Source: Psychrobacter immobilis (GTDB lineage: Bacteria > Pseudomonadota > Gammaproteobacteria > Pseudomonadales > Moraxellaceae). From it: DNA of 64,000 bases. The stretch covers positions 62,001 to 126,000 of the forward strand of contig NZ_CAJHAD010000003.1 in NCBI RefSeq assembly GCF_904846285.1, written 5' to 3'. The notes beneath the pieces are model-generated. The model did no database searches and had not been told where the DNA came from. It worked only from the letters and a program-made list of their open reading frames with translations. Numbering within the stretch: the stretch's first letter is position 1; the number at the start of each line of letters is the position of its first letter. A program made the position numbers and the translations under genes. Below, piece after piece: positions 10,172 to 13,989 of the stretch.

Positions 10172-11608
10172 TTACGCGGGGATTTGCGTATAGCTGATAC
10201 CAGCCATTTGCGTTGCCAAACGTAATACCTGCGTGCTATAGCCTACTTCGTTATCATACCAAATATAAACGATAGCATGGTTATCAGTCAAAATCGTTGC
10301 TTGGGCATCGACAATACCGACGTGCGTATCACCGACGAAATCCGTCGAGACCGCTTCGGTAGAATCTGTATAAGCAATCTGCGTCTGCCACTGACTGCTA
10401 TTAGAAACTTTACGCATGAACTCATTTAACGCATCAGCACTAGCTGGCGCAGTTTTAAGATTCAAGTTCAAAATCGCTAAGCTGACGTTTGGCGTTGGCA
10501 CGCGAATAGCATTACCCGTTAATTTGCCGCTAAGCTCTGGCAGTGCTTTACCAACCGCCTTTGCCGCGCCAGTACTGGTGATAACCATATTCAATACCGC
10601 ACTACGGCCACGGCGATCGGCTTTATGATAGTTATCGATTAAATTCTGATCATTGGTAAACGAATGAATGGTTTCAACGTGACCGTTTTCGATACCATAT
10701 TCGTCATTTAATACTTTTAGTGTTGGGGTAATGGCGTTGGTTGTACAGCTCGCCGCACTGACGATAGTATCATCGCCAACCGTGTCGTTATTCACGCCAT
10801 AGACGACGTTCTTAATATCGCCGCCCGCAGGTGCGGTTAGCAATACTTTTTTAACACCAGTAGACTGCAGATGCTTACCAAGACCGGCTTCATCTTTCCA
10901 GATGCCCGTATTATCAATGACCAATGCATCGTTAATACCATAAGCAGTATAATCAATCTCGCTTGGGTCTTTGGCATAAATCACTTGCACAAAGCGACCG
11001 TTGATAATCAAACCGTTGTTTTCGTTATCGACAACCACGCCACCAGCGAAGCTACCATGAATCGAATCACGTTCAAGCAATGAGGCACGCTTCGCCAGAT
11101 CGCCCGCTGCTGCAGGACGTACCACAATAGCTTTTAACTGCATACCCTTGGCGCTTGATGCTTGTGACAACAATAGGCGCGTTAAGATACGACCGATACG
11201 ACCGAAACCATATAGCACGACATCAGTTGCGCCATTGCTAGCGCCTTTATCAGTACCAATAGACTGTAAAGCCGCTTGTAAATCACTGTCATTAGCCATC
11301 AGCTGACCGACATCGATACGCGCCGCTTGGATATCTTTGTTCTCTGCAAGCGCTTTAACCATCGCTAACGTATCAGCGATATCGATAGCTTTAGCACCTT
11401 GCTCACGTAGCGCCACTTTTTGATGCAATGCCAATATTTGACCTACAGAAGTCGTATCTAGCGTATCGCCAAACAAAGTCACTTGCACATCTTGCTCGTT
11501 ATAAAGCTTATTCAATAGCCCCATCAACTCAATGGCTTGTTGCTCTTGTTGGTTATAATTGCTCAAGTGATCTTGATGTAATTGGCGTAAGGTATCAGCG
11601 TTGCTCAC
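10172..11608 (-). CDS. gap: Glyceraldehyde-3-phosphate dehydrogenase, long (PA3001-like) type
   Basis: Interconverts glyceraldehyde 3-phosphate and 1,3-bisphosphoglycerate. The NAD(P)-binding motif VVLYGFGRIGRILTRLL begins near residue 130, and the catalytic Cys is C288 in SAASCTTNAITPTL, with HSFTNDQNLID after it. The roughly 125-residue N-terminal helical extension is absent from ordinary GapA but found in the long GAPDH class of Pseudomonas and Acinetobacter. The frame opens with an ATG at 11617, but AAGGA overlaps that codon; it sits eight bases before a GTG at 11608, so I choose the GTG (478 residues). The cofactor and direction (glycolytic or gluconeogenic) cannot be told from the sequence. 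It is isolated from other glycolysis genes. Confidence 0.93.
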   Translation of the reverse strand: MSNADTLRQLHQDHLSNYNQQEQQAIELMGLLNKLYNEQDVQVTLFGDTLDTTSVGQILALHQKVALREQGAKAIDIADTLAMVKALAENKDIQAARIDVGQLMANDSDLQAALQSIGTDKGASNGATDVVLYGFGRIGRILTRLLLSQASSAKGMQLKAIVVRPAAAGDLAKRASLLERDSIHGSFAGGVVVDNENNGLIINGRFVQVIYAKDPSEIDYTAYGINDALVIDNTGIWKDEAGLGKHLQSTGVKKVLLTAPAGGDIKNVVYGVNNDTVGDDTIVSAASCTTNAITPTLKVLNDEYGIENGHVETIHSFTNDQNLIDNYHKADRRGRSAVLNMVITSTGAAKAVGKALPELSGKLTGNAIRVPTPNVSLAILNLNLKTAPASADALNEFMRKVSNSSQWQTQIAYTDSTEAVSTDFVGDTHVGIVDAQATILTDNHAIVYIWYDNEVGYSTQVLRLATQMAGISYTQIPA

Positions 11609-12032
11609 GAGAAACATCCTTATGGTCAGTAATTAGGTAATCAGTAAAGTATGAAGAAATATAAATAGATAGGTCATCATTAGTTTAGCTAATGATTCTA
11701 AAACGATAACGCTCGACTGTTGCTTCGATGGTTATGGTCACCGTTTTTATCAGCGTAGTCTTTAGATAAGAGAGATTTTAGCCTAAAATGCCTTATTTTG
11801 CTAGTGGTAACCGAATTCGCCGCGTTTATGAAGCAGATTATTAAAATATAGCCTGCTCGTTAAAAATAAAGACAGCTAAACTTGCTGTCCCATTTTTGAT
11901 GAGCCAAAAACGCTGTAGAAATCTGATGAATATAAAATGTTTAAGTAGCTGTCAGTAACAGACTATTAATAACGAAATACTAATAACTAACTATTAATAA
12001 TCGATAATTGGCCTTCATAACTAATAGATATT
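11609..12032. other. Spacer between the lipocalin gene and gap
   Basis: Contains a probable terminator for the lipocalin gene (11860-11889) and an AT-rich stretch near 11960-12003 where CTATTAATAA recurs. The gap promoter must lie between 11609 and about 11860; I see no strong consensus. Confidence 0.45.
11860..11889 (-). terminator. Probable terminator after the lipocalin gene
   Basis: Minus strand: GACAGC, seven-base loop, GCTGTC, then TTTATTTTTA. A short stem but with a good T tract, about 145 bases past the stop. Confidence 0.5.
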
Positions 12033-13460
12033 TTATGGCACCAATTTCACTGTCTGATTGGTCTGCGGCGTAAGTTTGAACTCTTTTAAATCATAGCCCT
12101 GTTGTTGGGCAATCTGGCGGTATTTGGCATAGGTTTCTTGACTCACATTTGGCGAACGCGCTAGCAACCATAAATAGTCTTTATCCGGTGTACCAACCAG
12201 TGCGGTTTTGTAATCTGCATCACGTGCCAGTACCCAATAATCCGCGCGACCGACAGGTAACCAACGAACCCAAGAGGGTAAGAAAGTAACTTTTAATTTG
12301 CTGCCCGTCGCATCAGCTGGTTTGGCTAAGCCTTCAGCTACGATATCTGAACCGTCTTGCGCTTTACACTGGTTAATCACTTTGATGCCTGAACCGTCTG
12401 TTTTTTCAACATAATTCGCGGTCACATCACTGGCGCAATTGCGCTGGAAATACATTGGCAAACGACCTATCTCATACCACGTGCCCGCGTACTTTTTAAG
12501 ATCAACGCTATCAACTGTAGTTGGTACACTTGCAGACTTATGAATGATAGCACTCGGCTTGATGGATAATGTCTTTGTGCTGGTTTTATCCGTCGTTGCA
12601 TTAGCGGTCACATTAGCTTTAGCCACAGTAGTGACGGGGGGCGTCGCCGCATACGCTGAGAACGCCGCCAAAGGGATAATAATCGCTAAGGCAATACCTG
12701 TGTGCTTGATAAGTCCATTCATAAATATGCGCTCCGGTATCTCTGTTACAGCTGCATCGGCAGTGTCAGCAGAAAGATGGTTTTTTGTTTTAGAGTCACT
12801 GGTTTTGGTTTTATCCTTTCTAGTCGGGCTATCTTCTGTACCTATAGCATCCGCCTGTCCCTCTACCATATCATCTTCAACAGAGTGCAGCTTTGATGAT
12901 TGTGTATCTACCTTTAGATTTTCATCAATATTAATATCAGTCGTTTTTGTCACTTTTTGATAGCTATGGGCTTTTTTATATCCATGATTAATCCGTGGAC
13001 TTTGTGAGTCTTGCGAGCTTTCAGCACTCTGATTATTTTTATTGTGTCTAGCAACCTTACTCGTGCTCGGCTTGCTTTTCATATTGCTAGTTTCAATACC
13101 AATAATGCTGCTAGCTTTATGATTGCTATTCTTAATCATTGCAGACTCTGTTGCCTCAGGAAGGCTTTTTTTAACGCTTTTGTAGCCAAAATAGCTATCA
13201 TATGCTGACGTATCTGTCACCAAATGGTTGGAGTGTTCGTCGTTAGCACTGTCATAGTGGTCATAATGATAGCTAGCGTCATTACTGGCGTTACCAGCCT
13301 CTGACGGCTTATCTGTCTTTAGATGACCTTTATTAATCTGGCCTTTCTTAAGATAGTTCTTTGTAAGATGGGGCTGACTTGGCTGGCTAGTCTGCTGCGA
13401 TTGAGAACCAGCTGCCTGAGAATCAGACCATGCTGATTTAGGTAACTTATTGGTTTTCAT
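12033..13460 (-). CDS. Lipocalin (Blc-like) family protein with optional long disordered N-terminal tail
   Basis: The C-terminal ~150 residues are a bacterial lipocalin: VDLKKYAGTWYEIGRLPMYFQ, then NQCKAQDGS, WVRWLPVGRADYWVLARD and YLWLLARSPN. Family members bind lipids or other small hydrophobic ligands at the envelope. There are two possible starts. The long frame from 13460 gives 475 residues, with about 245 residues rich in Ser, Lys, Asn, Asp and Thr before a hydrophobic segment; no Shine-Dalgarno precedes this ATG. An internal ATG at 12722 has GGAG nine bases upstream and begins MNGLIKHTGIALAIIIPLAA, a classical signal peptide ending in AYA-A; that form has 229 residues. The short form would be a secreted periplasmic lipocalin, the long form an inner-membrane protein with a cytoplasmic tail. 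I list the full frame because its composition looks coding; the 12033-12722 part is the secure portion. Confidence 0.8.
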   Translation of the reverse strand: MKTNKLPKSAWSDSQAAGSQSQQTSQPSQPHLTKNYLKKGQINKGHLKTDKPSEAGNASNDASYHYDHYDSANDEHSNHLVTDTSAYDSYFGYKSVKKSLPEATESAMIKNSNHKASSIIGIETSNMKSKPSTSKVARHNKNNQSAESSQDSQSPRINHGYKKAHSYQKVTKTTDINIDENLKVDTQSSKLHSVEDDMVEGQADAIGTEDSPTRKDKTKTSDSKTKNHLSADTADAAVTEIPERIFMNGLIKHTGIALAIIIPLAAFSAYAATPPVTTVAKANVTANATTDKTSTKTLSIKPSAIIHKSASVPTTVDSVDLKKYAGTWYEIGRLPMYFQRNCASDVTANYVEKTDGSGIKVINQCKAQDGSDIVAEGLAKPADATGSKLKVTFLPSWVRWLPVGRADYWVLARDADYKTALVGTPDKDYLWLLARSPNVSQETYAKYRQIAQQQGYDLKEFKLTPQTNQTVKLVP

Positions 13461-13989
13461 AGGAGTACCATTTATTAATAAGGATAGTTAAAAATTCTTT
13501 ATTAGAAAAGTATCAAATCATTATCAATAATCACTTTAAATATAAAAAAGCAAAGACTGAAAACTAAATAAAGTTATAGCCGTATACGCTATAAATTCTA
13601 AGAGGCACTGCCTAAATGTCATAAGTACATGACAATAAGAAGCTGTTTTTAGCAGCCTATATTGGAAAATAGCTGCCAAATAGATATATAACAAACTGAT
13701 TCAGCGCCTTTGATAATTTGACAGTTCATATTAATGGCAAAGACGCCATGAGAACAGTGTCGCAATGTAGGGAAACGCAACGGTTTGTAAGTAATTCTAC
13801 ATTTATCTGATAGAACGAACACATAGTTACTGATTGTTAAAACAGTATTGAAATCAGTGTTTTGTAATCCTCTAGACTACTCATTTAAGCTGTCTTACCC
13901 CCTGCTCTAACCCTTTACCTAAAAGGCGTTTCAGTTAATCAACCATGATAAGAATGATCAAAACAATAGTGTAAAAGCCATTCGATGTA
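13461..13989. other. Spacer upstream of the lipocalin gene
   Basis: No gene seen. It holds a GAT-rich element at 13510-13532 that resembles part of a Fur box. The rest is AT-rich without clear hairpins; the Nudix gene ends at its right edge. Confidence 0.45.
13510..13532 (-). promoter_or_regulatory. Possible Fur-type half-site upstream of the lipocalin gene
   Basis: The plus strand carries ATCATTATC at 13517-13525, identical to one half of the 19-base Fur consensus; on the minus strand the region reads as repeated GATTAT, GATAAT, GATTTG. The second half matches poorly. It lies about 50 bases before the long-form ATG. A weak call. Confidence 0.25.

Follow-up and report, generated by a model that had tools for sequence, protein, structure and literature searches.

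A lipocalin gene of Psychrobacter immobilis raises two linked questions: at which of two in-frame ATG codons its translation begins, and what the long stretch in front of its export signal is. In the window (the whole 64,000-nucleotide stretch of DNA that was analyzed), the minus strand carries a 475-codon open reading frame running from an ATG at 13460 to a stop at 12033, while the plus strand of the same stretch, read in a single frame, contains many stops. The first-pass annotation had placed a start inside this frame, at 12722, on the strength of a Shine-Dalgarno sequence and a classical signal peptide. Both are present: GGAG lies nine bases 5' of this ATG, with a predicted duplex of -5.8 kcal/mol, and a signal-peptide-like stretch follows it, ending ...AFSAYA-AT (residues 247–271). 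The same annotation described the 246 upstream codons as open and coding-like and, should both starts be used, expected from them a product with a roughly 245-residue cytoplasmic tail. That description agrees with the comparisons below, in which the upstream frame is conserved across most of the genus and evolves as coding sequence, and a tailed product is what such a frame leads one to expect.

We consider it likely that the gene starts mainly at ATG 13460 and encodes a 475-residue precursor composed of a disordered cytoplasmic tail, a Sec segment, and a Blc-type lipocalin of the periplasm. The proposed pathway can be rationalized into four steps. (i) Synthesis: one gene, translated chiefly from ATG 13460, would yield the 475-residue precursor, with initiation at ATG 12722 being at most secondary and giving the same mature lipocalin without the tail. 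(ii) Insertion: the first 240 or so residues would remain in the cytoplasm as a disordered tail, whereas residues 243–271, a Psychrobacter-specific and nearly invariant Sec signal or membrane segment, would insert with a predicted N-in topology, leaving the remainder to fold in the periplasm as a Blc-type lipocalin. (iii) Cleavage: after a putative cut at AYA, the lipocalin would be set free as a soluble, lipid-binding protein, and the tail plus segment would stay behind as a second, membrane-bound product. (iv) Action of the second product: the tail plus segment may act alone through short motifs (MKTNKLPxSAWSD..., GYK) that would bind a cytoplasmic or membrane partner.

Table 1. Coordinates of the lipocalin gene and its parts in the window, with the evidence for each.
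Feature	Coordinates	Strand	Evidence
Whole gene, encoding the 475-aa precursor of disordered tail, signal/membrane segment, linker, and lipocalin	12033..13460	minus	intact in 93/97 lipocalin-bearing Psychrobacter loci fetched
Tail, residues 1–246: polar, predicted disordered and cytoplasmic; conserved N-terminal motif, recurring GYK	12723..13460	minus	Ka/Ks 0.36–0.37; pLDDT < 50
Upstream (main) start, first 20 codons	13401..13460	minus	strong synonymous constraint, obs/exp 0.25
GGTA at -9 to -6 of upstream start, in the place of a Shine-Dalgarno	13466..13469	minus	GGTA in 75/83
Internal Shine-Dalgarno GGAG of possible second start	12732..12735	minus	GGAG in 63/83; codons 241–249 obs/exp 0.58
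Internal ATG, residue 247, possible secondary start	12720..12722	minus	ATG in 83/83 tailed sequences
Signal/membrane module, residues 239–276, consensus PERxFMxxLxKHTxIALAIIIPLAAxSAYA	12633..12746	minus	Ka/Ks 0.041; 105/105 Psychrobacter genomes
AYA, residues 269–271, predicted signal peptidase I site	12648..12656	minus	each residue in 83/83 tailed sequences
Lipocalin_2 domain, residues 319–466, predicted periplasmic	12063..12506	minus	PF08212 E 3.9e-46; fold match to E. coli Blc 3mbt
Terminator-like hairpin 3' of gene	11869..11891	minus	consensus match only; 3 such sites vs 1.7 expected

The C-terminal domain is an unremarkable lipocalin of the Blc type that lacks a lipobox. It matches Lipocalin_2 at 157.1 bits, far above the gathering score of 24, and the other Pfam matches are weak (lipocalin-like or DUF4830). 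The closest structures in the PDB are a plant temperature-induced lipocalin and E. coli Blc, with Foldseek returning 3mbt (Blc) at a TMt of 0.90 and 8wb2 at E 3.7e-14. Residues 326–328 form what we take to be the GxW motif, and G326 and W328 are invariant. The likeness to Blc thus extends over the Lipocalin_2 domain, the β-barrel fold, and GxW. The Psychrobacter protein differs in lacking a lipobox cysteine (its first Cys is residue 342, with none in 1–341), in missing the cut-off of the NCBIfam model PRK10477 (89.6 vs 267 bits), and in adding a long cytoplasmic tail and an invariant signal module. In the accessible text of PMC9113575, Blc is described as binding fatty acids and phospholipids; by family, we infer that the Psychrobacter lipocalin binds lipid. 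Outside the genus, the domain is most similar to lipocalins of other Moraxellaceae (Acinetobacter and others), at up to 54% identity; their N-termini are unrelated and, by eye, mostly ordinary and signal-peptide-like, and neither the tail nor the KHTxIAL module occurs in any of the 24 Moraxellaceae lipocalins listed, two of which are the same record.

In front of the domain, the protein has few points of comparison. Neither Pfam nor NCBIfam matches anything in residues 1–246, and the tail has no paralogue besides itself in its own genome at E up to 10. In the AlphaFold2 model (mean pLDDT 52.7 over the whole protein), almost every residue of 1–242 scores below 50, residues 243–266 form a low-confidence helix (about 50), and the lipocalin barrel is for the most part confidently predicted. 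Two kinds of known protein come closest. The first is the LcoA-BcnA chimera, in which, as far as the accessible text of PMC9113575 goes, a YceI-type lipocalin is fused behind cytochrome b561, so that a lipocalin likewise follows an N-terminal membrane part that replaces a signal peptide; the chimeras differ in their YceI family and cytochrome partner, and that text describes no disordered tail. Among the Pfam matches of the Psychrobacter protein at E up to 1, there is neither a YceI domain nor a cytochrome b561. The second is the signal peptide with an extra N-terminal region, of which the ESPR, the extended signal peptide of type V secretion, is one example. Another is given by the NtraC model, which, in the accessible part of PMC2447879, concerns long vertebrate signal peptides with two functional domains. 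The shared feature is an additional N-terminal region before an export signal, possibly with a function of its own (for NtraC, PMC2447879). The Psychrobacter tail differs in being bacterial, in its length of 81–288 residues, and in having no type V passenger or outer-membrane barrel behind it: Pfam finds the lipocalin plus weak matches, and AlphaFold2 a single lipocalin barrel.

Is the upstream stretch translated at all? A whole-protein search of 100 Psychrobacter genomes gave a match in every one, in three to the signal segment only. Ninety-seven lipocalin-bearing loci were fetched and the 93 intact ones aligned, leaving out the broken L024, L064, L083, and L095. The first-pass annotation had suggested looking for frameshifts and stops in relatives and for the synonymous-site ratio of the upstream frame, and both point to coding. 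Only one of the four breaks, in G056 (86% complete), falls inside the tail; the others lie inside the membrane segment (G053, 99% complete) or the lipocalin domain (G076, 84% complete, and G096, 100% complete). In G053 (L064/L287) the break, whether a mutation or a sequencing error, leaves the tail and the lipocalin in two separate open frames. An upstream frame of 81–288 codons (median 177) is found in 84 of the 93 intact genes. The remaining nine have an extension of merely 13–33 codons, so the long tail is dispensable in part of the genus. With the base composition of the tail itself, 246 codons would stay free of stops by chance with a probability of about 9e-8. Over 26 independent pairs, drawn from 52 of the 93 sequences, Ka/Ks was 0.37 for residues 1–115 and 0.36 for residues 116–238, compared with 0.041 for the module (239–276), 0.25 for the linker, and 0.052 for the lipocalin (residues 313–475).

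The tail also has recognizable content. Its start follows the pattern M-[KT]-[TA]-[NTD]-[KEN]-L in 73 of 93 proteins, and the inner motifs ASND and GYK recur across species. GYK was counted 49 times in 49 representative tails, being present in 36 of them, against 1.2 in shuffled sequences, and there are up to four copies per tail (e.g., at about residues 71–131 in L008 and 74–118 in L039). Repeated in this manner, GYK resembles a multivalent short binding motif. Apart from the short motifs, the tail changes fast, and a few tails (for example L085, L086, and L096) are unalignable with the others. The tail is, as judged from its pattern of substitution, a translated, constrained but quickly evolving region, predicted to be disordered.

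To compare the candidate starts, synonymous changes per conserved codon were counted on a tree and compared with the gene-body average for the amino acid encoded. Ten lipocalin rows with short or unalignable tails were dropped beforehand, leaving 83, and the controls were 72 rows of gapA and 30 each of bamA and degP, the latter two being the 30 best-matching genomes. The names gapA, bamA, degP, and Nudix-ThiE were assigned by eye and are presumed. The Nudix-ThiE gene was dropped as a fourth control, its start not being alignable. After the upstream ATG, which is kept in 82 of 83 sequences, the first 20 codons show an observed/expected ratio of 0.25 (44 vs 179.3 changes over 12 scorable codons), in line with the true starts of gapA (0.26), bamA (0.10), and degP (0.28). 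The 20 codons 3' of the internal ATG (248–267) stand at 0.95, where 33 other windows have a minimum of 0.88 and a median of 1.01. Similarly, Ks is depressed over signal peptides located at a start, both in bamA (0.057 vs 0.317 in the mature part) and in degP (0.123 vs 0.254), unlike the lipocalin, where it is normal (0.316 vs 0.348). The normal Ks and the ratio of 0.95 argue that the lipocalin signal segment does not lie at a start. Thus, ATG 13460 is well supported as the main start by the substitution pattern, the reverse of what the first-pass annotation had favored. A core Shine-Dalgarno sequence precedes this ATG in 1 of the 83 tailed sequences, GGTA standing there in most. A leader hairpin pairing this GGTA with TTACC of codons 6–7, noticed by eye, was set aside: a general start effect is enough, gapA, bamA, and degP being equally constrained.

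The internal ATG retains a signature of its own that is local and weak. Codons 241–249 (seven of them scorable) reach 0.58, a value beneath those of all 159 further nine-codon windows in the lipocalin region (minimum 0.77) and of 20 internal Met codons used as controls in four genes (0.71–1.41). The first nine codons of true starts lie far below, at 0–0.18, and body windows of the other genes fall as low or nearly so (minimum 0.45 in bamA, 0.52 in degP, 0.61 in gapA), which makes the constraint at the internal start suggestive only. It is this signature that keeps alive the two-start claim of the first-pass annotation, in which a tailed form from the upstream ATG and a tail-less form from the Shine-Dalgarno-driven ATG 12722 are both made in meaningful amounts. 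In the balance we judge such dual initiation possible, at clearly less than even chances. GGAG is well spaced in 63 of the 83 tailed sequences, all of which have Met247, and the dip to 0.58 undercuts every lipocalin window and Met control. On the opposite side stand the 20 sequences without GGAG, the ratio of 0.95 where true starts have 0.10–0.28, the still lower non-start windows of bamA and degP, a short-tailed clade that retains an ATG 13 codons further upstream (in 6/6 sequences shown), and a coding strand within the tail that has no promoter-like site. Even a minor second start at ATG 12722 has, in our estimate, only some one chance against two of being real. The opposite extreme, in which the tail would be an untranslated leader or a chance frame and the internal start alone is used, is extremely improbable. 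It would explain why a Shine-Dalgarno sequence is found solely at the internal ATG, yet it is at odds with the Ka/Ks of the tail, with the start signature at the upstream ATG, and with an open frame retained in 84 of 93 intact genes despite big changes in length; a chance open frame or a non-coding leader was rejected on these observations. Relying on a Shine-Dalgarno sequence and a classical signal peptide to choose the start would cut this gene at 12722 and, by the start signature, discard over half of the precursor. A cheap way to decide between in-frame starts is to measure, against control genes, how constrained the synonymous sites are after each candidate ATG.

With translation from ATG 13460, the fate of the lipocalin hinges on AYA. 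The segment has the n-h-c layout of a cleavable Sec signal with small residues at -3 and -1 (by eye); A269, Y270, and A271 are each found in 83/83 tailed sequences, and short-tailed and lipocalin-less relatives retain an A/S-x-A nearby (also by eye). Together, the unvarying AYA and the similar sites in the other forms favor cleavage by signal peptidase I. The first-pass annotation had foreseen two locations, a secreted lipocalin and a membrane-anchored form; with a conserved AxA, both starts may yield the same free periplasmic lipocalin, and the idea of two locations is not borne out. A rival in which AYA stays uncut would have the lipocalin tethered to the inner membrane by a signal anchor, its tail reaching into the cytoplasm, where a partner might be coupled to lipid binding in the periplasm. 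The single helix predicted at 243–266, albeit with low confidence, and the near-invariance of the segment would suit an anchor, as would the membrane-tethered lipocalin fusions of the unrelated YceI/BcnA family that appear in the accessible text of PMC9113575. The conservation of AYA and of A/S-x-A in the short-tailed and lipocalin-less forms is instead that of cleavable signal peptides, and the linker after AYA is variable (Ka/Ks 0.25). We regard the uncleaved anchor as a serious minority reading, and cleavage at AYA as the preferred one.

The segment is conserved across the genus. A profile of the module matched 105/105 Psychrobacter genomes at E up to 1e-6, partially in G053. Of 149 genomes drawn from the family, 43 matched, 41 of them Psychrobacter and two in genus g10, the latter weakly (15 residues, E about 1e-4); among the 20 listed of the 106 family genomes without a match, there is no Psychrobacter. 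An order-wide search at E up to 0.1 matched 62 of 293 genomes, 8 of the 62 being Psychrobacter. The best non-Psychrobacter match in that search (G462, E 3e-6) was discarded, being by eye an ordinary signal peptide at the ATG of another gene.

Three Psychrobacter genomes carry the module at this locus in an open reading frame without a lipocalin, of 59 codons in G061, 131 in G082, and 188 in G088. None of the three has a lipocalin elsewhere in its genome, and no lipocalin remnant was detected within 6.5–6.8 kb around the frame (best tblastn E 1.6; positive control 8e-69). In a gapA tree, G061 falls within the short-tailed clade of P. pasteurii and relatives, as sister to G034 (100/100), apart from G082 and G088, which form a separate pair (100/100), so that at least two events of lipocalin loss are required. 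G082 and G088 have synonymous differences at 13 of the 20 codons that encode the core KHTAIALAIIIPLAAYSAFA and no amino acid change there, which argues that the segment is selected as a protein without its cargo. On these alignments and the gapA tree, at least two lineages have kept the module after losing the lipocalin domain. The lipocalin-less evidence comes from these three genomes, of which G061 might reflect a recent deletion. Nor is an invariant signal segment peculiar to this gene: the 12 bamA pairs likewise show no amino acid difference in their signal peptide. The lipocalin-less proteins of G082 and G088 (L269 and L270) have in common a C-terminal HTLGVPxYxD and differ in their other periplasmic parts; a DUF4179 match of one lipocalin-less protein was weak (E 0.11) and was not counted as evidence.

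Taken together with their conservation, the tail and segment probably have a function of their own. We go one step further with a tentative proposal, to which we give a little less than even chances: that the tail plus invariant segment constitutes an independent membrane protein specific to the genus, a bacterial signal peptide whose n-region measures up to 288 residues and which would function after targeting, exporting a lipocalin in most Psychrobacter and persisting alone in lineages without that cargo. If the tail plus segment works alone, it would provide a clean case for a lasting function of bacterial signal peptides, with the relatives in which the cargo has been deleted and the signal retained as a natural control. 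Another way to account for a segment that survives its cargo starts from the substrates that monitor protein localization pathways, which carry export signals. The module might be such a monitoring or arrest-type export substrate, influencing expression downstream. Substrates that watch localization pathways are treated in the accessible part of PMC7897499, and the segment is indeed kept as a short open reading frame upstream of gapA after lipocalin loss. No conserved arrest motif was noticed, however; a terminator-like hairpin lies between the gene and gapA in the window, and the Ka/Ks of the module, with its normal Ks, points to a stable protein role, which makes a monitoring substrate very unlikely.

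The open-access literature searched yielded no mention of the tail or the invariant segment, or of the segment persisting without cargo, nor anything relevant on a Psychrobacter lipocalin or Blc. New here would be these three; as far as the accessible texts go, membrane-attached YceI lipocalins (PMC9113575) and two-domain vertebrate signal peptides (PMC2447879) were known.

The surroundings of the gene bear on the direction of these changes. In the window, gapA follows the lipocalin gene on the same strand (10172–13460). Five outgroup genomes were compared: in G130, G121, and G188, from three other Moraxellaceae genera, a lipocalin is likewise found within about 1.5 kb upstream of gapA on the same strand, whereas the arrangement is absent in G108 and G112 is uninformative, its gapA being at a contig end. 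The adjacency of lipocalin and gapA is an old neighborhood, and from this gene order the lipocalin is probably ancestral at the locus. Because of the outgroup lipocalins near gapA, the lipocalin-less cases are read as losses rather than absence before a gain. One placement in the gapA tree stands apart: in G013, a Psychrobacter assembly that is 83% complete, the gapA (L280) falls with genera g7 and g10, at an open fork with long branches. The tail of G013 is also unlike other tails, and contamination, a misplaced genome, or gene transfer are possible.

The 5' leader holds two further elements. The first, TTACAAACCGTTGCGTTTCCCTACATTGCGACA (13758–13790, minus strand), lies about 300–330 bases upstream of the start. 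Its exact 15-base core occurs at -185 to -415 in 13 of the 92 relatives with enough upstream sequence; the element is single-copy in G000, G048, and G091, with one match in the window, and neither G061 nor G082 has it when up to 2 mismatches are allowed. It is real but patchy, and might serve the tailed gene as a regulatory site. Rfam gave no credible match, its one snoRNA match being far below the cut-off. The second is a hairpin, GGCTGCTAAAAACAGC, with an inverted repeat TGTCAT...ATGACA (13610–13660, minus strand; about -200 to -150). As a conserved leader element it was ruled out: its exact 30-mer is confined to the window's own genome among the 363 loci compared, which suggests a recent insertion. 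The stretch contains the -35-like part of the best promoter-like site (13622–13595).
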